From assembly GCF_002954265.1 (NCBI RefSeq), contig NZ_PPSL01000002.1, positions 992,001 through 1,056,000 on the forward strand: DNA of 64,000 bases. Reading direction: 5' to 3'. Shown one piece after another: positions 26,032 to 35,602 of the stretch (positions within the stretch are counted from its first letter, which is position 1; every line of letters begins with the position of its first letter). The DNA comes from Flavipsychrobacter stenotrophus (GTDB taxonomy: Bacteria > Bacteroidota > Bacteroidia > Chitinophagales > Chitinophagaceae). A model generated the notes under the pieces. It was not told where the DNA came from, did no database searches, and was given only the letters and a program-made list of their open reading frames with translations. The position numbers and the translations under genes were made by a program.

Positions 26032-26371
26032 GTAATTTTATAAACTGTTTATTAGAGAAATGGAACGATATCCCGACAAAACAAATTTCACTTTTATTTA
26101 TATTTAATTTATTGCCAATTCAAAAAGTACTATCAATCAGTGCTTTTATTATTGAATTTTGCCATTTAATTACTTAAAGTTAATAAATGTACATAAAATA
26201 TTATTAAGCAATTGGACTAAAGTATAAAAAAATAGTCGAAAAATTTCGACAGAATATTGTTTTTTTGAATGAGTAGGGGTATTCCTTTACTTAGTTGTCT
26301 GCTATTATAAGCGGAAAGAAATGAAGGATAATTGAAAGCGATTATATTTGATATTAGCATAAAATGGAATA
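26032..26371. other. AT-rich divergent intergenic region
   Basis: This 340-bp region lies between the minus-strand hypothetical and the plus-strand sigma factor. No gene was seen. It carries the -7 box at 26343-26350 and should hold promoters for both directions. Confidence 0.5.
26343..26350 (+). promoter_or_regulatory. Bacteroidota -7 promoter box (TATATTTG)
   Basis: TATATTTG matches TAnnTTTG and lies 21 nt before the sigma factor start. This suggests the primary sigma factor reads the operon. Confidence 0.45.
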
Positions 26372-26938
26372 ATGGAAATTGATAGCGGGCCTGTTTTATT
26401 GAAGAGAGAAAATACAGCAATTTTTGAGACTGCCTTTAAGCAGCATTTCAAGGCGCTACATGCCTATGCCTATACTATTATAAAAGATGATGTGATGGCC
26501 GAGGAAATAGTACAGAATATGTTTTATAAGATATGGAAGAACCGGGAGACAATAACGATCAACCAATCTTTCACAGCCTACCTATACAGATGCGTATATA
26601 ACGACAGCCTCAATCACCTGAAACATGTAAAAGTAAAAGCAGCTTATCAATCTTATGCAGTCCAAAACATGAGCAATTCAAATAATGCAGCGGATCAAAA
26701 GAGCCTCCGCGACCTGGAGCAAAAACTGGATGAGGCGATGAAGGAATTACCGGAACAATGCCGTACTATATTTCAGCTAAGCAGATTTGAAGAGCTGAAA
26801 TATCTACAGATTGCCGACAAACTGGGAATATCAGTAAAAACGGTAGAGAACCAGATGGGCAAAGCGCTGAGATTGCTTAGGGGAAAGCTGGTAGACTTTC
26901 TGCCGGCAGCATTGATAATATTATTACTCACCTTGTAA
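26372..26938 (+). CDS. ECF sigma factor (FecI-like, Bacteroidota type)
   Basis: A 188-residue RNA polymerase sigma-70 factor of the extracytoplasmic-function class. Region 2 is visible as FKQHFKALHAYAYTIIKDDV through EEIVQNMFYKIWKNRE. Region 4 is the HTH LKYLQIADKLGISVKTVENQ followed by MGKALRLLRGKL. The C-terminus is hydrophobic (FLPAALIILLLTL), which is often seen in this branch. The next gene encodes a FecR anti-sigma factor, so its activity is probably held in check until a surface signal arrives. Likely targets are the downstream surface-protein genes. Confidence 0.9.
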   Translation: MEIDSGPVLLKRENTAIFETAFKQHFKALHAYAYTIIKDDVMAEEIVQNMFYKIWKNRETITINQSFTAYLYRCVYNDSLNHLKHVKVKAAYQSYAVQNMSNSNNAADQKSLRDLEQKLDEAMKELPEQCRTIFQLSRFEELKYLQIADKLGISVKTVENQMGKALRLLRGKLVDFLPAALIILLLTL

Positions 26939-26939
26939 A

Positions 26940-27935
26940 ATGGATAGTGTGAACAGAAAACCGGAAAATACCGATGACGTGCTGGTAAAATACCTGCTGG
27001 GTGAAGCTACAGATACAGAGCAGCAAGAAGTAGAGCAATGGATAGCCGACAGCGCCGAAAACAAAAAACATTTCGACCACTTTAAACTGATATGGGATGA
27101 GAGTAAGCACCTGGCGTCTCAAAGTACAGTTGATGAAAATGAAGCGTGGGATCGCTTTATGGCAAAAGTGAAGACAGAAGAGAAGGCGGAAGCAATACAA
27201 CCAAAGGGCAGAGCGATACCATTGGGCAAGACCAACTGGATGAGAGCTGCTGCTGCATTGGTGCTGCTGATAGGATGCGGAGCCATTTATTATTTCGCCG
27301 CAGGGCCGGGCAGTACCATTACTACGCAGGCCGGTGATGTGGCTATGTCCACCACCCTGCCAGATGGTTCGGTAGTGACGCTGAACAGGAATTCATCAAT
27401 AAGCTACCCTACTTCATTCAGCGGAGGAACGAGACATGTGGTACTGAAAGGTGAAGCCTTCTTTAATGTTACGCCCGACAAAACGAAACCCTTTATCATT
27501 GATGCCGATAACAGCAGCATAAAGGTGGTGGGTACTTCATTTAATGTGAAGAGCAATGATGATAAAACAGAGGTAGTTGTAGAAACAGGAATAGTAGAGG
27601 TGGCCAAGAAACAATATGCTATAAGAGTATTGCCACACCAGAAAGCGATAGTGCTGAAACAAGAACAAAAGCCGGTGATGGAAAACAGCACTGACGTATT
27701 GTACAACTACTACAGAACAAAGGAGTTTGTTTGCGATCACACTCCATTGTATAAACTAACGGATATACTTAATGAGGCATTCGATGTGCATATAGTTATA
27801 GCAACGCCAACACTGAAAAACATACCTATTAATAGTACCTACCACGAGCAAAGCCTGGATGCTATATTAGAGAATATAAAAATGCTGACAGGGGCAACCG
27901 TGGAAAAAAACGGCAGCGAAATAATATTAAAATAG
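26940..27935 (+). CDS. FecR-family anti-sigma factor
   Basis: A 331-residue single-pass inner-membrane protein starting 1 nt after the sigma factor stop. The N-terminal cytoplasmic segment (LVKYLLGEATDTEQQEVEQW) is the usual sigma-binding region. A membrane helix follows (WMRAAAALVLLIGCGAIYYF). The periplasmic FecR domain includes LPDGSVVTLNRNSSISYP and GEAFFNVTPDKTKPF. The C-terminal DUF4974-like part contains LYKLTDILNEAFDVHIVI. It should transmit a signal from an outer-membrane STN domain to the sigma factor; the next gene encodes exactly such a domain. Confidence 0.92.
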   Translation: MDSVNRKPENTDDVLVKYLLGEATDTEQQEVEQWIADSAENKKHFDHFKLIWDESKHLASQSTVDENEAWDRFMAKVKTEEKAEAIQPKGRAIPLGKTNWMRAAAALVLLIGCGAIYYFAAGPGSTITTQAGDVAMSTTLPDGSVVTLNRNSSISYPTSFSGGTRHVVLKGEAFFNVTPDKTKPFIIDADNSSIKVVGTSFNVKSNDDKTEVVVETGIVEVAKKQYAIRVLPHQKAIVLKQEQKPVMENSTDVLYNYYRTKEFVCDHTPLYKLTDILNEAFDVHIVIATPTLKNIPINSTYHEQSLDAILENIKMLTGATVEKNGSEIILK

Positions 27936-27959
27936 CCTCATCTGCCGTACCTTTCGCAC

Positions 27960-29747
27960 ATGCGCCTTACCGTGAAAAACCTACTTTTATTTATACTGGT
28001 GGCTATACTTAGCCATCAGTATAGCTATGCGCAGGGACTGCTGGATAAAAAAGTAACGCTAACACTAACCAAAAAGCCGGTGAAGGAAGTGCTGAACACG
28101 ATCAGCAACCAGGGAGGCTTTTATTTTTCTTACATCAGTACCACTATTAACAATGATAGCCTTATCAGTATTGCTGTTCATAACAAAACAGTTAAGCAAA
28201 CACTCGATCTTATTTTCGGAGAGAAGTGCCAGTATAAAGAGAGTGACAACCACATTATTATACAGCCTTCGGCCAAAGAGAAATGGTACGCCATTTCGGG
28301 GTATATAACGGACAGGCTTACAGGGATAGGGATAAGTGATGTGAGTGTATTTGAAAGACAAACACTTGCTTCTACCCTTTCGGCAGCCGATGGTCATTTC
28401 AGGCTGCTGATAAAGGAAAGCGACCGATACCCTGTAGCTAAGGTGACCGTGACCATGGGCTCTTTTTATGAAGACACTACCATGCTATTTACACAGGGTT
28501 ATGACCAGCAACTGAATATATCATTGCCGCCGTCCAATCATTCATTGCAGGAAGTGGAGATCAACAGGTATACGGGCGTGGAGCGATCATGGCTGGGAAA
28601 ACACCTGTTCTCCACAAAGCTGCGTAAGCAGAGCGCCAATCTGGGTAAGTTCTTTGTCGATAAGCCCATTCAATTTTCGCTGACTCCGGGTCTGGGTTCT
28701 CATGGCAAACTGAGCGGGCAGGTGGTGAATACATTTTCGTTCAATGCTCTTGGCGGTTATGCTGCGGGCGTAGATGGCTTTGAACTGGGTGGACTCTTTA
28801 ACATTGACAAGAAGGATGTAAAATATGTGCAGGTAGCGGGGCTATTTAATGTAGTAAGCGGCAACACTGATGGCGTGCAGATAGCGGGGATAACCAACAG
28901 GGTAAATGATTCCGTGAATGGTCTGCAAATTTCGGGTATACACAGCCGCATAAAGGGTAGTGTAAAAGGTATGACGGTGGCCGGCATAAAGAGCTACGTT
29001 GATGGGAGCTATAAGGGATTCCAGTTATCAGGTATTGCTAACACTATTGAAAACGACCAGCAAGACAGCATGGCTATGGAAGGTTTTCAGCTATCGGGCA
29101 TAAGAAACAAAACCTATGGCAATGTGGAAGGGCTGCAAATGGCGGGCCTCATCAACGTGGCCAAGGGAGATGTGAACGGAGTGCAGGCATCTGCTATCTT
29201 CAACCGCGCTAAAAAGGTAAAGGGTGTGCAGATAGGATTTGTGAATATTGCCGATACGGTAGATGGCTACTGCATAGGGTTTGTGAACATCGTAAAGAAG
29301 GGCTATCATACCTTATGCTTGTCTACCAATGAAGTATTCAACACGAACATATCTTTCCAGGGCGGTAATAAGAAGCTATATGGAATCTACACGGTGAGCT
29401 TTAATATTAACCCCGACAGAAAGGCTTTTGGGTTGGGCTATGGTATAGGAACGCAAAGGCGCATAACCCCAAAGACAGCATTCCTTGCAGAATTAACAAC
29501 AGCTGCTATGTACACGGCCGATACTACAACTCCAAACATCATTAAATTCCGCACAGGATTTATATTCGAAATCACGAAAAAGCTTTCCGTTCATTTTGGA
29601 CCATCTATATCACTCGGTGTTCCATTTAGAGGTCCGTATAAGCCGGGGTATCAGACGCTCAGTCCTGATGATAAATTGTATGAAGTATACAAAGGTACCA
29701 AGGTGTCTTCGTGGATAGGCTGGCAAGCTGGGATCAATATTTTTTAG
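27960..29747 (+). CDS. STN-domain surface protein with LA_2272-like repeats
   Basis: A 595-residue exported protein (signal LLLFILVAILSHQYSYAQ) following the FecR gene. Residues about 25-104 form an STN (secretin/TonB N-terminal) domain: KKVTLTLTKKPVKEVLNTIS, FYFSYISTT, then VKQTLDLIFGEKCQY. Residues about 110-200 look like a carboxypeptidase-regulatory-like beta domain (ISGYITDRLTGIGISDVSVF). From about 265 to 445 there are roughly ten short repeats of the type G-V-Q-[IV]-A-G-[LIF]-x-N (GVQIAGITNRVND, GLQISGIHSRIKG), resembling LA_2272 surface repeats. The last 120 residues suggest amphipathic strands of an outer-membrane barrel. No TonB plug or receptor barrel follows, unlike FecA-type sensors. 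Confidence 0.7.
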   Translation: MRLTVKNLLLFILVAILSHQYSYAQGLLDKKVTLTLTKKPVKEVLNTISNQGGFYFSYISTTINNDSLISIAVHNKTVKQTLDLIFGEKCQYKESDNHIIIQPSAKEKWYAISGYITDRLTGIGISDVSVFERQTLASTLSAADGHFRLLIKESDRYPVAKVTVTMGSFYEDTTMLFTQGYDQQLNISLPPSNHSLQEVEINRYTGVERSWLGKHLFSTKLRKQSANLGKFFVDKPIQFSLTPGLGSHGKLSGQVVNTFSFNALGGYAAGVDGFELGGLFNIDKKDVKYVQVAGLFNVVSGNTDGVQIAGITNRVNDSVNGLQISGIHSRIKGSVKGMTVAGIKSYVDGSYKGFQLSGIANTIENDQQDSMAMEGFQLSGIRNKTYGNVEGLQMAGLINVAKGDVNGVQASAIFNRAKKVKGVQIGFVNIADTVDGYCIGFVNIVKKGYHTLCLSTNEVFNTNISFQGGNKKLYGIYTVSFNINPDRKAFGLGYGIGTQRRITPKTAFLAELTTAAMYTADTTTPNIIKFRTGFIFEITKKLSVHFGPSISLGVPFRGPYKPGYQTLSPDDKLYEVYKGTKVSSWIGWQAGINIF

Positions 29748-30266: not shown

Positions 30267-30413
30267 CATTGACTTAAGGGTTCTTCTATACCGATTGCGC
30301 TCCTTCAGAGCTTTTATGTTGTGGTGGTTTCTGACGTAGGGCTAAAACGCCCTACGCTATTGAGGACGCTCTTTCAGAGCTTGCTCCTTTGCGTAGGTCA
30401 ATGACATTCACCT
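30267..30413 (+). repeat. 145-bp dispersed repeat, copy 2
   Basis: Nearly identical to 16867-17012 across CATTGACTTAAG, CGTAGGGCTAAAACGCCC and CGCTCTTTCAGAGCT, with small differences scattered throughout. Confidence 0.8.
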
Positions 30414-30488
30414 ACGCAAAGGAGCAATGACATTAGCCGATACCGATATGTAAGGTCTATTTGGCATTACTACAGTTACAGAGCGCAA

Positions 30489-30520: not shown

Positions 30521-30622
30521 TATTAGTTGTGGCTATAATACCCGCCTCTATTAACAAGTAATTTAATTCTCTGCATAGGGGTATAAACACTGTTGGCTGT
30601 CATATTTCAAACAACAGAAATT

Positions 30623-31828
30623 ATGACATCGAAGATCTTAACCCTTGCAGCATTTATACTTGGTTTTACGCAAACACCGTACGCACAAACAGCACATCAA
30701 CATGTAAATATAGGGCTGGTATATCCGCTGAGCACTAATGGTGTTCATGCGGGGCAGTATAACAACCTACTTTCTCTTAATGCTATAGCCGGGGTGTCCG
30801 CTTCAGAGAATGGGCTGTGCCTTGCAGGCGTATCGAACACCATTAAAGATAGTGCCAGTGGAATGGTTGCGGCCGGCGTGGTAAATGTTGTTGGTGGTAA
30901 TGCAAAAGGTGTGCTGGCAGCGGGTGTGGTAAACATAGTAAAAGGTCAGGTAACGGGCATGCAGGCATCAGGGTTTGTCAATGTGTGCGGCAACATAAAT
31001 GGCATGCAAACAGCAGGGTTTTGCAATGTAGCTCGTGGCAATGTAAATGGCTTACAGTATGCGGGATTTGTGAACAAGGCAAGGAATGTAAATGTGCAGT
31101 ATGCGGGGTTCACCAACATTGCCGACTCTGTGCGCGGCGGACAGTTTGCCGGTTTCAACAATACAGCTTTGGGTACGGTAAATGGTGTGCAGGTGGCAGG
31201 ATTCAGTAATGAAGCACAGAACGTACACACCCAGATCTCGGGATTCATCAACACCGCACGCAATGTGGAAGGTGCGCAAATAGCCGGTTTTATAAACGTA
31301 GCGAAAAAAGTAAAAGGTGTGCAGCTATCGGGATTTATGAATATTGCAGATAGCAGCGATTATCCTATTGGTCTCATCAACCTGATAAAGAAAGGCGAGA
31401 AGGCAATAGGTGTAAGTGTTGATGAAACGGGCACTACTATGGCTACATTCAGATCAGGCGGCAGGGTGCTGTACGGCATGGTAGGTGCGGGTATCAACAA
31501 TTATAAGAGTGATGGTCTTTACGCAATAGGCGCAGGACTAGGCGCCCATCTGCTCATGACCAAACACTTCAGGATAAATGTGGAAGCAGCAGTGAATACC
31601 CTCTCGGGATTTAACAACAAGTACTTCATCAATACAGGAGTGCGTATATACCCATCTTTTAAAATTGCCCGCGTAGAATTATACGGAGGACCCTCTATCA
31701 ACTATGGTGCTTACTCCCGCCGTCTTGACAATTATGGCGTAAGCAATACCATATGGTCGAGCAACTATTACAGCTATAAACAAGATCTTCATTTTGGTGT
31801 TGTTGGCGGCGTGCAGGTACATATATAA
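30623..31828 (+). CDS. LA_2272-like repeat surface protein
   Basis: From ATG 30623 (MTSKILTLAAFILGFTQTPY) the product has 401 residues with a signal peptide. It lacks the STN and regulatory-like domains of its paralogue at 27960-29747. Residues about 50-270 are ten or more short repeats such as GMVAAGVVNVVGGNAK, GMQASGFVNVCGNIN and GVQVAGFSNEAQNV. The last 130 residues (YGMVGAGINNYKSDGLYAIG, RVELYGGPSINYGAY) look like outer-membrane beta strands. A beta-solenoid stalk or surface patch is a reasonable guess. The longer frame from 30593 adds ten residues before the signal and is unlikely. Confidence 0.65.
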   Translation: MTSKILTLAAFILGFTQTPYAQTAHQHVNIGLVYPLSTNGVHAGQYNNLLSLNAIAGVSASENGLCLAGVSNTIKDSASGMVAAGVVNVVGGNAKGVLAAGVVNIVKGQVTGMQASGFVNVCGNINGMQTAGFCNVARGNVNGLQYAGFVNKARNVNVQYAGFTNIADSVRGGQFAGFNNTALGTVNGVQVAGFSNEAQNVHTQISGFINTARNVEGAQIAGFINVAKKVKGVQLSGFMNIADSSDYPIGLINLIKKGEKAIGVSVDETGTTMATFRSGGRVLYGMVGAGINNYKSDGLYAIGAGLGAHLLMTKHFRINVEAAVNTLSGFNNKYFINTGVRIYPSFKIARVELYGGPSINYGAYSRRLDNYGVSNTIWSSNYYSYKQDLHFGVVGGVQVHI

Positions 31829-32391
31829 GTAAAAGGTGGTTGCATAAATACCTATGCTTGGTTTACTCCCGGGGTGGTGCTGTGGGCACAAAACGAATAC
31901 GTCCTTGCGTGAGATTGCTTTCCCGCAATTCTGCGGGATAAACTCAATCCTTGCAATGACGCGATGAGGGTGGTGTTGGGAATATAAAACGAACACGTCC
32001 TTGCCTGAGATTGCTTCGTTCCTCGCAATGACCCGATGGGGGTGGTGTTGTAATGTAAAGCGAATACGTCCCGATACTAGATTGCTTCGTTCCTCGCAAT
32101 GACCCGATGGGGGTGGTGTTGTAATGTAAAGCGAATACGTCCCGATACTAGATTGCTTCGTTCCTCGCAATGACACGATTAGTTGGTGTTGGGAATGTAA
32201 AACGAATACGTCCTTGCGTGAGATTACTTCGTGCCTTGCAATGGCCGGTTAGAGATGAGGATTTGGATACAAAAGAAAAACAGAAATAATTTTTAAAGTA
32301 AATAGGGGTATCTCTCTCAACAATTGTCATCTATACATAACAACAAATTATACACACTTAAACAACTTAAAACAGCTTAAAACAAGTAACA
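31829..32391. other. 563-bp intergenic region with tandem array
   Basis: Almost all of it is the array at 31890-32250. An AT-rich leader before the head-GIN gene (32270-32391) probably holds its promoter. Confidence 0.65.
31890..32250 (+). repeat. Five-copy tandem array, 71-bp unit
   Basis: Units start at 31890 (96 bp, with a 25-bp insertion), 31986, 32057, 32128 and 32199 (partial). Each begins AAARCGAAYACGTCC and contains GATTGCTTCGTTCCTCGCAA followed by TGACNCGAT. Units 3 and 4 are nearly identical, which points to recent duplication. The core TTGCGAGGAACGAAGCAATC (reverse strand) is a widespread interspersed repeat motif I know from other bacterial genomes. Confidence 0.9.
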
Positions 32392-33105
32392 ATGAAAACA
32401 GTAATTTTCTCTCTCCTTTGCGCAGCAGTGCTTTTCGTAACCCCATCATGCAACAAAATTTCAGGCGACGGTCCTGTAGTATCACAGAAGCTTAATATCA
32501 CCGGCTTTACCGGTATATACGCAGGCATAGATGGTGATGTTTATTTCACCCAGGATTCTGTATTTAAAGTAGAAATAGTAGGACAGTCGAACATCATCAG
32601 CCACATACAAACTTATGTAGAGAACGGTGTGCTACAGATGCACTTTGAACCATTGGCCAATATAGGCAGACACACACGCGTGACCGCGTATGTAAGCGCG
32701 CCATCGGCTTACAACCTGGGTATTAACGGATCGGGCACTTTAAAGGTACTACAGCCAATCATCTCCAGCGACTTAAGTCTGAAAGTAAACGGATCGGGCG
32801 ATATATATGTGGCACAACTTACCGGCACCAATCTATATGGCAACATCAGTGGATCGGGCAATATCAACATTGGTGCAGGTAGTGTAAGAAACGAATCACT
32901 ACAGATTAGTGGCAGCGGCACAATTGACCTGTTTAACATCTATGCGAGAACGGTTGATTCCCGCACAAGCGGATCGGGTACTACAAAGGTGAATGTAAAT
33001 GATGACCTTACAGTAAATATTTCCGGTAGCGGTGATGTATATTGCATGGGCAATCCAAGTGTACATTCTTCTATTTCAGGATCAGGTAAAGTAGTTCACT
33101 ACTGA
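32392..33105 (+). CDS. Head-GIN-domain lipoprotein (DUF2807)
   Basis: A 237-residue lipoprotein (MKTVIFSLLCAAVLFVTPSC, Cys20). It carries the repetitive parallel beta structure of the head-GIN domain, seen in the recurring NGSG/SGSG turns (LGINGSGTLKV, KVNGSGDIYVA, NISGSGNINIG, ISGSGTIDLF). The domain is common in Bacteroidota outer-membrane lipoproteins; a binding role is assumed. It precedes a TonB-dependent receptor by 100 nt on the same strand. Confidence 0.85.
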   Translation: MKTVIFSLLCAAVLFVTPSCNKISGDGPVVSQKLNITGFTGIYAGIDGDVYFTQDSVFKVEIVGQSNIISHIQTYVENGVLQMHFEPLANIGRHTRVTAYVSAPSAYNLGINGSGTLKVLQPIISSDLSLKVNGSGDIYVAQLTGTNLYGNISGSGNINIGAGSVRNESLQISGSGTIDLFNIYARTVDSRTSGSGTTKVNVNDDLTVNISGSGDVYCMGNPSVHSSISGSGKVVHY

Positions 33106-33205: not shown

Positions 33206-35602
33206 ATGAATAAGATCAGCATTTATATCTTCTTCCTTATAGCTATATGCACTAATACCAACGTGTCAATAGCGCAGGATGCACCGGCACCCACCATGCA
33301 AAATGTAACGGGCAACGTATACGATGAAGCATCGAGAACACCACTGTCGGGTGTAGTTATTCTGCAACTGAATACAGGTGTCACACTCAATGGAGGCGTT
33401 ACTGACTCAGCAGGACACTTTAAGATTGCCGTGCCAATTGGCAGGCAAACATTCAAGCTTACCTATATGGGCTATGAGAGCCGCGTGATCAATGACGTGA
33501 TCGTTACTGCAGGCAAGGAAGTAAACCTGAACATAGCCATGCAGGAGGCCCTGCATAAACTGAACGAAGTAACGGTAGTGTACAACAAGGCCAAAGACAA
33601 AACGCGCACCAACAATGATATGGCGCAGGTAAGCGCCCGCTCATTCAACGTAGAAGAAACCAAAAAGTATGCCGGTGCACTGGGTGACCCATCGCGTATG
33701 GCGGCGAACTTTGCCGGTGTAGCATCTGGCAATGATGCTACTAATGACATAGTGGTGAGAGGTAATTCTCCATCAGGCATGCTGTGGCAGTTGGGTGGAC
33801 TGAACATTCCTAATCCTAACCATTACGGATCATTGGGCAGTACGGGCGGACCGGTAAGCATGATCAACAACAATAACATCGATAAGTCTGACTTTATCAC
33901 CAGTGCATTTCCAGCGCAATATGGCAATGCGGTAGCCGGGGTATTTGATATCAAACTAAGAGACGGCAATAAGGATAAGAAGGAGTTTATGGCGCAGGTA
34001 GGTTTCAATGGTTTTGAGCTGGGTGCGGAAGGGCCACTGGGCAAGAAGAAGAACACATCATATCTTATCAATTACAGGTATTCGACACTAGGGTTGTTCC
34101 AGACACTGGGTATCAATTTTGGCACAGGCTCTGCGACACCCTTCTACCAGGATCTGAACTATAAAATAACAACACAAGTAAGCAAGACCGCCAAGGTGAG
34201 TCTGTTCGGTATTGCCGGACTAAGCTCGATAGATTTCCTGGGCAAAGATGTAGACAGCACAAAAACAGAACTTTATGGCGGCGATCCTTATGCCAACCAG
34301 ATGAGCAGGTATGCTACAACAATAACAGGACTCAGCTATGAGCAGCGTCTGTCGTCGAAAACCTTTACCCGCCTTACTCTTGGGTATTCCTCTACTTACG
34401 AAAAGTACAATGAAGATTCGCTTAGCTACATAGGTAACTCTGTTACGCCAACCTACTATCATAAATTCACCACCGGTAAAATGTCGGCTATATGGATGAT
34501 AGCACATAAGCTGAGTGCAAAGGATAATGTGGAAGCTGGTATAACCTATGACCACACCAACTTCTTCCTTAACGACAAGCAACTGCACCCTGGCAGCCCC
34601 GATGAAGTATACGTGGACAATAAAGGCAACTATGGACTGGCGCAGGCATATGCACAATGGAAACACAGATTTACCAACAATTTTGCAGCAGTAGGCGGTA
34701 TGCACTTCCAATACCTTACTATAAGTAATTCGATAGCCGCTGAGCCACGCCTTAGCTTTAGGTATGCATTCAACAGTAAGCAGGCATTAAGTGCAAGCTA
34801 TGGATTGCACCACCAGGCGCAGAATCTGTACACCTATTATGCACAGACTGAAACAGCAACCGGCATCACCTATACCAACAAAGATCTTGGCTTTACGCGT
34901 AGTAATCATTTTGTGCTTACTTACGACTGGAACATAACCCAAAACCTGCGACTGAAAGCAGAGACCTACTACCAGGCATTGGCAAATATCCCGGTTGAAC
35001 GTACTTCATCAGCATACTCAGAAGTGAATTCAGGTGCTAATTTCAATAACTCATTTGCAGATAGCCTGGCGAATAAAGGCACCGGTCGTAACTATGGTGC
35101 GGAGATAACACTTGAGCGTTTCTTTAACAAGGGATACTACTTCCTGTTTACCACGTCACTGTTTCAGTCTTACTACAAGGGCAGCGATGGTGTAGAGCGC
35201 AATACAGCCTTTAATACCAATTATGTGTTCAATGCATTGGCAGGTAAAGAGTTTAAGCTGGGCACTAAAGGAAGCGTATTAGCACTCAATCTTAAGCTAA
35301 CTACCGTTGGCGGCAGGTACCTTACACCTATAGACCTTGACCAGTCGCGTATAGAAGGCAAGGCTGTATATAAAGTAGAGCAGGCATTTTCAGAAAAACA
35401 ATCTCCGTACCTGAGGGCAGACGTAAAGATCGCTTACCGCAAGGAATACAAAAAGAGTACACTGGAAGTAGCCCTGGATATGCAGAACATCACCAACAAC
35501 CAGAACGTATTTACCAAGGGATATGACGCAAAAGCAGGTAAAATTGTGACCGTGTATCAGCAGAGTTTCTTCCCTATTCCTATGATCAGGTATACATTCT
35601 AA
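33206..35602 (+). CDS. TonB-dependent receptor with carboxypeptidase-regulatory-like N-domain
   Basis: A 798-residue outer-membrane receptor. A signal peptide ends NVSIAQD. A CarboxypepD_reg-like domain covers residues about 33-115 (VTGNVYDEASRTPLSGVVIL, FKLTYMGYESRVINDV). A plug follows (DPSRMAANFAGVASGNDATN, VVRGNSPSGMLWQLGGLNIP), then a barrel with many aromatic strand ends and a final PIPMIRYTF. It has no STN domain, so it cannot by itself be the signalling receptor for the FecR upstream. No SusD partner follows. The substrate is unknown. Confidence 0.88.
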   Translation: MNKISIYIFFLIAICTNTNVSIAQDAPAPTMQNVTGNVYDEASRTPLSGVVILQLNTGVTLNGGVTDSAGHFKIAVPIGRQTFKLTYMGYESRVINDVIVTAGKEVNLNIAMQEALHKLNEVTVVYNKAKDKTRTNNDMAQVSARSFNVEETKKYAGALGDPSRMAANFAGVASGNDATNDIVVRGNSPSGMLWQLGGLNIPNPNHYGSLGSTGGPVSMINNNNIDKSDFITSAFPAQYGNAVAGVFDIKLRDGNKDKKEFMAQVGFNGFELGAEGPLGKKKNTSYLINYRYSTLGLFQTLGINFGTGSATPFYQDLNYKITTQVSKTAKVSLFGIAGLSSIDFLGKDVDSTKTELYGGDPYANQMSRYATTITGLSYEQRLSSKTFTRLTLGYSSTYEKYNEDSLSYIGNSVTPTYYHKFTTGKMSAIWMIAHKLSAKDNVEAGITYDHTNFFLNDKQLHPGSPDEVYVDNKGNYGLAQAYAQWKHRFTNNFAAVGGMHFQYLTISNSIAAEPRLSFRYAFNSKQALSASYGLHHQAQNLYTYYAQTETATGITYTNKDLGFTRSNHFVLTYDWNITQNLRLKAETYYQALANIPVERTSSAYSEVNSGANFNNSFADSLANKGTGRNYGAEITLERFFNKGYYFLFTTSLFQSYYKGSDGVERNTAFNTNYVFNALAGKEFKLGTKGSVLALNLKLTTVGGRYLTPIDLDQSRIEGKAVYKVEQAFSEKQSPYLRADVKIAYRKEYKKSTLEVALDMQNITNNQNVFTKGYDAKAGKIVTVYQQSFFPIPMIRYTF

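Follow-up and report, generated by a model that had tools for sequence, protein, structure and literature searches.

As a rule, a FecR relay is set off by an import receptor for iron or sugar, and such relays are usually taken to report the occupancy of that receptor. In the Fec, Fox and Pup systems (FecI-FecR-FecA), an ECF sigma factor, a membrane-bound FecR with a FecR_C domain and an exported outer-membrane protein with an N-terminal STN domain are encoded in a set order. The STN domain of FoxA touches FoxR and protects it (PMC11637429). PUMA3 (VreA-VreI-VreR) of Pseudomonas aeruginosa combines an ECF sigma factor and a sigma regulator with an STN-like protein distinct from TonB receptors; the available part of PMC2729926 describes VreA as a 23-kDa protein without a barrel. 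Here we describe a locus that has the components and gene order of the former and, like the latter, an STN protein other than a TonB receptor. It lies in a stretch of 64,000 nucleotides from Flavipsychrobacter stenotrophus (the window). We propose, with a probability of roughly 0.6, that it encodes a Bacteroidota cell-surface-signalling relay in which sensor and TonB receptor are different proteins, with a putative mechanism and a regulon marked by a promoter motif. The predicted architecture, the synteny and the common promoter motif are the parts of this reading supported by sequence comparison. We found no published description of the system in a literature search that left most subscription papers outside, and the available parts of PMC9249621, PMC9723704 and PMC9239204 contain nothing on this architecture.

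The gene trio and the predicted fold of the STN protein

Three genes follow one another on the forward strand with spacings of 1 and 24 nt, as the earlier note on this DNA had reported. They encode an ECF sigma factor of the TIGR02985 group (26372..26938, 188 aa; TIGR02985 165.7 bits, cut-off 126.4), a FecR-type anti-sigma factor with FecR and FecR_C domains (26940..27935, 331 aa; PF04773 71.6 bits and FecR_C 37.5 bits, each above its cut-off) and an exported STN protein (27960..29747, 595 aa), the proposed sensor or transducer. As in Fec-type systems, the sigma factor gene adjoins that of the FecR anti-sigma factor, and the periplasmic C-terminal STN-like domain of FecR (FecR_C) was found in 27/27 aligned FecR members.

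The structure model of the STN protein (pTM 0.48; unreliable at residues 195-259) predicts, in order, an STN domain, a SusC-type NTE, a linker, a beta-solenoid formed by the repeats and, at the end, an OmpA-like barrel of 8 strands. The assignment of the STN domain (residues 25-104, 28032..28271) rests on Pfam and predicted secondary structure, the fold comparison having barely tested this part. In the window protein, Pfam gave 26.1 bits for residues 61-103, under the cut-off of 28.4; among the family members, STN was detected in 32/33 at E<=1 (best E 5.3e-14). The NTE or carboxypeptidase-D-like domain (residues 109-193, 28284..28538) matched the NTE of SusC (9hfj; Z 11.8, rmsd 1.9, 80 aligned) and also 6ytc (Z 9.7). 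CarbopepD_reg_2 scored 22.7 bits in the window protein, under the cut-off of 32.2, and was present in 33/33 members at E<=1, so that the carboxypeptidase-regulatory-like domain named earlier holds at the family level. A PDB sequence search with the family returned two chains, each of the NTE/carboxypeptidase-D type.

The repeats had been recognized correctly as LA_2272-like: the LA_2272_repeat model (NF047436) scored 29.1 bits in the window protein (cut-off 25) and matched 33/33 members at E<=1. They form the predicted solenoid (residues about 260-445, 28737..29294), which matched 3p4g (Z 19.4, rmsd 2.3, 204 aligned). The antifreeze-protein fold match of the sensor reflects solenoid shape and says nothing on function. 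What had been described as a short barrel-like end is a predicted 8-stranded OmpA/OprF-like barrel with a C-terminal Phe (residues 448-595, 29301..29744; 4rlc, Z 13.6, rmsd 2.5, 120 aligned).

TonB-dependent transducers have a plug and a 22-stranded barrel, neither of which is present in the predicted fold of the sensor. The list of families for the 33 sensor members has 21 entries and includes neither Plug nor TonB_dep_Rec, so the combination of STN without a plug stands. SusC/RagA models of NCBIfam matched 3 of the 33 (best E 1.5e-4), in matches reported without positions. With Plug in 0/33 members and an 8-stranded barrel predicted, the third gene was ruled out as a TonB receptor.

The repeats had also been placed at the cell surface, a location that the name of the repeat model implies too, but the predicted topology does not support this part of the earlier note. 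In the models of the sensor and of its paralogue rep2 (see below), the repeats lie N-terminal of an even-stranded barrel, on the predicted periplasmic side. Because the solenoid is positioned between the STN domain and an even-stranded barrel, it would be on the same side as STN; the solenoid is therefore probably periplasmic. The predicted outer loops of the barrel are short except for the last, which has 29 residues.

Conservation of the trio and census of FecR and STN proteins

A gene for FecR adjoins that for the STN-solenoid-barrel protein in 42/49 loci from at least six families, by which a local accident was rejected as an explanation of the trio. A non-transporter STN protein is a conserved neighbor of this FecR; the expectation that homologues lie next to FecR held in 42/49 loci and failed in 7/49. 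These loci are not independent and include near copies (L001/window, L009/L010/L015 and L005/L006). The ORF caller uses the earliest start, which is too early in some loci (L011, L013, L031, L068 and L069). No sigma factor ORF was called in L074. The sensor-match search, with 3 candidates scored per genome, gave at least 220/395.

The window's genome contains one FecR only, the one beside the STN protein. Using the STN-NTE part of the family, we obtained 12 matches at E<=1 in this genome, with all 73 candidates scored. STN positions were covered by this protein alone, and the other 11 matches started at position 98 or later, in the NTE; no further STN protein was found in this search. Single FecR proteins occurred in 5/18 genomes (G000, G017, G146, G076 and G186), each beside this STN protein; G017, G146 and G186 showed one or two extra STN-NTE matches reaching into STN positions. 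In G253, a genome with 28 FecR, the same search detected another 20 frames bearing STN (872-1262 aa). In several genomes, this relay, with a sensor unlike that of the usual FecR relays, was the only one of the FecR type to be found.

The seven homologues without adjacent FecR would be consistent with an STN protein that has kept its domain but does not signal, FecR answering to another partner. We consider this highly unlikely: the synteny extends across at least six families, the genome of the window yielded no alternative STN protein, and in a midpoint-rooted tree the orphans are nested within FecR-linked clades, where 4 changes are required and at least 3 are forced.

Downstream genes and the candidate promoter motif

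Three further genes on the forward strand had been overlooked, leaving the earlier reading of the locus incomplete. The first, rep2 (30623..31828, 401 aa), encodes a paralogue of the sensor, a predicted solenoid-barrel protein without STN or NTE. An independent model of rep2 showed the same barrel (pLDDT 86.8). Its repeat part matched HxuA (4i84; Z 11.3, rmsd 3.1, 159 aligned) and also GlmU and LpxD, at rmsd near 10; the antifreeze-protein chain was absent among the rep2 fold matches listed. The NCBIfam repeat model matched 15/19 aligned rep2 members and missed the copy in the window. The second gene encodes a DUF2807 (head-GIN/Toastrack) protein (32392..33105, 237 aa; PF10988 136.2 bits) with an N-terminus that, by eye, is lipobox-like. 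DUF2807 was found within 8 kb in 11/17 genomes, relative to an expected 0.23 (3/75 rows, second pieces of one frame, were left out of this count).

The third encodes a TonB-dependent receptor that has an NTE and a plug and lacks STN (33206..35602, 798 aa; 20.0 bits for Plug, under the cut-off of 23.9). In Fec-type systems STN is carried by the TonB-dependent receptor, whereas in 11/11 module receptors scanned Plug was present and STN was missing. Based on a single-sequence search, the STN-less receptor was found in 22/37 module loci with enough flanking DNA; this receptor family was not nearby in 15/37. In L027 and L029, different receptors, matched by Plug but not by STN, follow the sensor.

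Upstream of the sigma factor gene, there is a sigma-type promoter motif, GGGGTA-N14-TGTC (26276..26299). The same motif, on the same strand, precedes rep2 (30578..30601) and the DUF2807-TonB-receptor pair (32305..32328). The window thus has 3 sites (chance 0.06). Including the window, the motif was found before the sigma factor gene in 24/39 loci under the strict pattern and in 29/39 under the loose one. Downstream module genes carried it in 24/69 cases (rep2 9/19, TonB receptor 11/24, DUF2807 4/26) versus 1/146 other genes, and other genes of orphan loci in 0/47; no strict motif preceded any downstream gene in 14/34 loci having such genes. By called starts, the motif was found before 0/43 STN proteins; two genomes, G249 and G371, do have a site some 30 nt ahead of where the sensor match begins, which over-long called starts kept out of this count.

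In 18 genomes, the strict motif was present within 2 kb upstream of 10/17 module FecR genes versus 0/89 other FecR genes, and the motif was therefore rejected as a general FecI-type promoter. Motif sites lay within 8 kb of module FecR in 19/118 cases, relative to an expected 0.37. Overall, the strict pattern was near background in 17 other genomes (106 sites versus 91 for the reversed pattern), indicating that the signal lies in placement. Sequence comparison thus gives the sigma factor and receptor genes a common promoter motif; its pairing with this sigma factor is a candidate one, which comparison alone cannot assign.

Because the receptor, rep2 and the DUF2807 protein share locus and motif, the module does include a transporter, albeit one without STN. 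Of the earlier reading, in which a protein other than a transporter reports to the sigma factor, the plug-less STN protein next to FecR is supported, and the receptor of the module had been missed. This receptor may itself bind a ligand and pass its state, via NTE domains or by contact, to the STN barrel protein and on to FecR. Such a split transducer is quite possible, if short of an even chance. It would fit a receptor occurring in 22/37 loci, STN-less wherever scanned and preceded by the motif in 11/24 cases, and the other STN-less receptors with plug in L027 (with the motif) and L029. In addition, the sole distant motif site just before a gene in the window's genome precedes another STN-less TonB receptor (L083). 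However, the receptor may be a plain member of the regulon, and its family is not nearby in 15/37 loci.

A rather doubtful reading, which involves no ligand, is that the barrel-solenoid protein reports its own assembly or the state of the outer membrane or peptidoglycan, and the regulon repairs the envelope. The short outer loops, apart from that of 29 residues, and a candidate regulon of envelope proteins would fit. So would its DUF2807 member, since the available part of PMC11237479 unifies DUF2807 into Toastrack, a partner of phage-shock envelope-stress systems. The same source, however, argues that Toastrack is intracellular, while the DUF2807 protein here is exported; the available part of PMC10949514 describes a DUF2807 protein as an adhesin, and the frequent TonB receptor points to uptake.

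The proposed relay and its relation to known systems

We return to the relay with a sensor separate from the TonB receptor. In this FecR relay, a small anchored outer-membrane protein appears to take the place of the import receptor, and the relay seems to activate a conserved group of envelope genes, one of which codes for a separate receptor. The STN domain of the sensor would bind the C-terminal STN-like domain of FecR (residues 263-331) and keep FecR stable. Cleavage of FecR and release of the sigma factor may follow when the barrel or solenoid changes state in response to a ligand, an envelope defect or a partner, for example the TonB receptor without STN. Once free, the sigma factor would direct transcription of its own operon; promoters of the form GGGGTA-N14-TGTC would let it transcribe rep2 and the genes for the TonB receptor and the DUF2807 protein as well. 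The likeliest trigger would be the state of the neighboring receptor or of the outer membrane, which is the weakest step of the proposal. The predicted regulon and promoter are directly testable.

A stronger version, in which a FecR relay detached from nutrient uptake uses a barrel-anchored periplasmic solenoid to sense the outer-membrane state or a partner receptor and has a dedicated promoter and regulon, we consider unlikely. If true, this conserved class of relays would be a Bacteroidota counterpart of sigma-E, and its regulon would comprise solenoid-barrel proteins, Toastrack-type proteins and TonB receptors lacking STN.

The sensor shares its repeat with the LA_2272 and VC2662 repeat proteins (NF047436 and NF047437), to which it adds STN and NTE. 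VC2662 is uncharacterised in the available part of PMC10865864, and we found no function of the LA_2272 repeat in print. With the SusC/RagA-type TonB receptors of Bacteroidota it has in common an STN domain followed by an NTE, and the NTE fold matches that of SusC; unlike them, it has no large barrel and no plug was found. PUMA3 is defined by a small STN protein without a beta-barrel, whereas residues 448-595 here are predicted to form one of 8 strands, anchoring a protein with NTE and solenoid that is conserved in another phylum and has a different gene neighborhood. The difference from Fec, Fox and Pup is that the protein carrying STN has a beta-solenoid and a predicted barrel of 8 strands but no plug, and that a separate gene encodes the TonB receptor, which lacks STN.

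Organization and predicted structure of the sigma-FecR-sensor trio

Genes for an ECF sigma factor (26372-26938; TIGR02985 member, 165.7 bits), a protein with FecR and FecR_C domains (26940-27935) and a sensor protein with STN, CarbopepD_reg_2 and LA_2272_repeat domains (27960-29747) follow each other on the + strand with gaps of 1 nt (sigma/FecR) and 24 nt (FecR/sensor), in agreement with the arrangement described in the earlier note. The window sensor scored below the Pfam cut-offs for STN (26.1 bits) and CarbopepD_reg_2 (22.7 bits) and above the NCBIfam cut-off for LA_2272_repeat. Its domain identity was settled at the family level: among 33 family members, STN was found in 32 and CarbopepD_reg_2 in 33 (both at E<=1), LA_2272_repeat was found in all 33, and the scan gave no Plug row. 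Of ten relatives scanned singly for STN, three were at or above the cut-off, six were below it, and in one (L017) STN did not appear at E<=0.01. At its C-terminus the sigma factor has a hydrophobic tail that is conserved in the family (consensus LVDFLPxxLLxL, window 26888-26935) and for which membrane contact is conceivable.

In an AlphaFold2 model of the sensor based on 33 sequences (pLDDT 77.3, pTM 0.48), residues 31-103 showed the strand-helix order of STN domains. Fold comparison matched residues 109-193 to the carboxypeptidase-D-like 5aq0 (Z 12.6, rmsd 1.7, 79 aligned) and the SusC N-terminal extension (NTE) 9hfj (Z 11.8, rmsd 1.9, 80 aligned); the model is unreliable over residues 195-259. 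The repeats were modelled as a beta-solenoid (residues about 260-445; 3p4g, Z 19.4, rmsd 2.3, 204 aligned) and residues 448-595 as an 8-stranded barrel, similar to the designed barrel 6x9z (Z 13.9), OprF (4rlc; Z 13.6, rmsd 2.5, 120 aligned) and OmpA (1qjp; Z 12.3). In the alignment, 29/33 family members end in Phe, a terminal residue common in outer-membrane barrels. The paralogue rep2, which lacks STN and NTE, was modelled from its own 19-row alignment (pLDDT 86.8, pTM 0.71) with the same barrel (4rlc, Z 14.8); its repeats again formed a stack of short strands, matched less closely by beta-helical proteins. Because both ends of 8-stranded outer-membrane barrels are periplasmic, and contact with FecR requires STN to be in the periplasm, the sensor solenoid between them is probably periplasmic. 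The predicted topology would therefore place on the periplasmic side what had been called surface repeats. The strand prediction would leave the barrel with outer loops of about 5, 4, 7 and 29 residues.

Distribution of the sensor and its linkage to FecR

Scanning genome contigs, we found 32 sensor loci, all titled Bacteroidota and mostly from Chitinophagaceae or its genera; the upstream neighbour was FecR in 26 of them. With three candidates scored per genome, at least 220 of 395 sampled Bacteroidota genomes had some match; many of those listed were proteins with repeats alone, or TonB receptors matched in their STN-NTE part. Seventeen further loci (families f1, f3, f5, f7, f8, f9 and f10) were extended from full-length matches. 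FecR adjoined the sensor in 16 of these, the exception being the f5 locus, and in 42/49 loci overall. ORF calling gave a sigma gene in 39 of these 42 FecR-linked loci; L001 and L020 are cut by a contig end, and L074 has no sigma ORF among its called genes. The nearest relative of the window (97%) is a MAG titled Flavipsychrobacter stenotrophus.

Seven orphan sensor genes (L005, L006, L023, L025, L028, L031 and L063) have no sigma or FecR neighbours. In a midpoint-rooted tree of 50 sensors they lie inside FecR-linked clades, requiring 4 changes, at least 3 of them forced by well-supported branches. This nesting suggests that linkage to FecR is ancestral and was lost late in some cases; the orphans may act in trans or no longer signal.

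The genome of the window (F. stenotrophus) contains a single FecR and, at E<=0.01, a single Pfam match to STN. When all 73 candidates in this genome were scored with the STN-NTE part of the sensor family (14 rows), 12 matched at E<=1; the sensor was matched over positions 8-201, and none of the 11 others covered the STN positions (start at 98 or later, NTE only). The same search is able to see STN receptors, since in G253, a genome with 28 FecR genes, it found 20 further frames of 872-1262 aa with matches starting in the first 12 positions. A single FecR, each adjoining the sensor, was present in 5/18 genomes, F. stenotrophus among them. Of the other four, G076 likewise had the STN positions matched in the sensor alone; in G017, G146 and G186, one or two further matches reach into STN.

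Downstream module genes and a candidate promoter motif

Downstream of the window sensor lie rep2 (30623-31828), a DUF2807 gene (32392-33105) and an STN-less TonB receptor gene (33206-35602). Among 37 FecR-linked loci (window included) in which at least 3.5 kb follows the sensor, the receptor was present in 22, DUF2807 in 25, a repeat-only paralogue in 18 and at least one of the three in 32; L007, L016, L018, L065 and L074 had none of them. In 11/17 genomes, DUF2807 genes were located no more than 8 kb from the module FecR (expected 0.23, given a total of 72 such genes across the 88.6 Mb that 18 genomes comprise). All 11 module receptors scanned had NTE and Plug, and none had STN (E<=0.01). L027 and L029 carry another receptor type after the sensor, with Plug and without an STN row.

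The repeat-barrel half of the L007 sensor (L007:5977-7770) resembles rep2 (265 bits) more than its counterparts at other loci do, and no separate rep2 is among the called ORFs there; this sensor may have arisen by fusion of an STN-NTE part to a body of the rep2 type. For rep2 in the window, the ORF listing gives TTG 30593, inside the promoter motif described below; ATG 30623, opening an apparent signal peptide, is the likelier start. The 0.85-kb sensor-rep2 gap contains an inverted repeat (30381-30427; 23-nt arms, 1-nt spacer), which could be a mobile element or a terminator-like one. An array of 71-nt units (31872-32229) lies in the interval from rep2 to the promoter of DUF2807, with two identical copies at 32008-32149 and diverged copies around them.

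The motif GGGGTA-N14-TGTC was first read from regions upstream of sigma genes. Three copies occur in the window, before sigma, rep2 and DUF2807-receptor (0.06 in shuffles). Across the loci, with the window among them, strict matches no more than 200 bp from a called start were found before the sigma gene in 24/39 cases, the STN-less receptor in 11/24, rep2 in 9/19, DUF2807 in 4/26, FecR in 0/42 and the sensor in 0/43. Other genes of at least 150 aa had it in 1/146 (the L027 receptor). It was absent from all seven orphan loci, including their other genes (0/47). The downstream genes (24/69) differed from other genes with Fisher p = 1.1e-12, kinship ignored. At least one strict site preceded downstream genes in 20 of the 34 loci having such genes, and none did in 14. 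DUF2807 often lies after the receptor in the same orientation, and the two may be transcribed from one promoter.

Over whole genomes, counts of the strict pattern were close to background (12 vs 5 for the reversed pattern in the F. stenotrophus genome, 106 vs 91 in 17 others). Nevertheless 19/118 strict sites, in 12/17 genomes, lay no more than 8 kb from a module FecR (expected 0.37), and a site was found within 2 kb upstream of 10/17 module FecR genes vs 0/89 other FecR genes. Beyond the three copies in the window, the F. stenotrophus genome has 9 sites: 7 are within ORFs, 1 is intergenic with no gene after it, and 1 is 89 bp ahead of a gene for an STN-less TonB receptor (L083:3-1445), a possible distant regulon member. 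In another genome, a DUF2807 gene situated about 68 kb away from the module (G049:C7:44571-45412) has the motif upstream and a second one in the opposite orientation.

Proposed mechanism and comparison with known systems

By analogy with the protective contact of the FoxA STN with FoxR (PMC11637429), the sensor would keep FecR intact, and the sigma factor would be freed when this hold is lost or altered. One candidate trigger is a split transducer, in which the hold is altered by the STN-less receptor, itself part of the candidate regulon; another is the envelope state. DUF2807 has been unified as Toastrack, with partners from envelope-stress systems, and is argued there to be intracellular (PMC11237479); a DUF2807 protein has been described as an adhesin in Porphyromonas gingivalis (PMC10949514). 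This literature does not decide between the two candidates.

In the literature searched, we found no description of a solenoid sensor anchored by a barrel, or of the conserved six-gene module and the promoter that go with it. A precedent for STN on a non-receptor is VreA of the PUMA3 system; VreA, however, has no barrel (PMC2729926), whereas the sensor reported here is predicted to carry a barrel-anchored solenoid.
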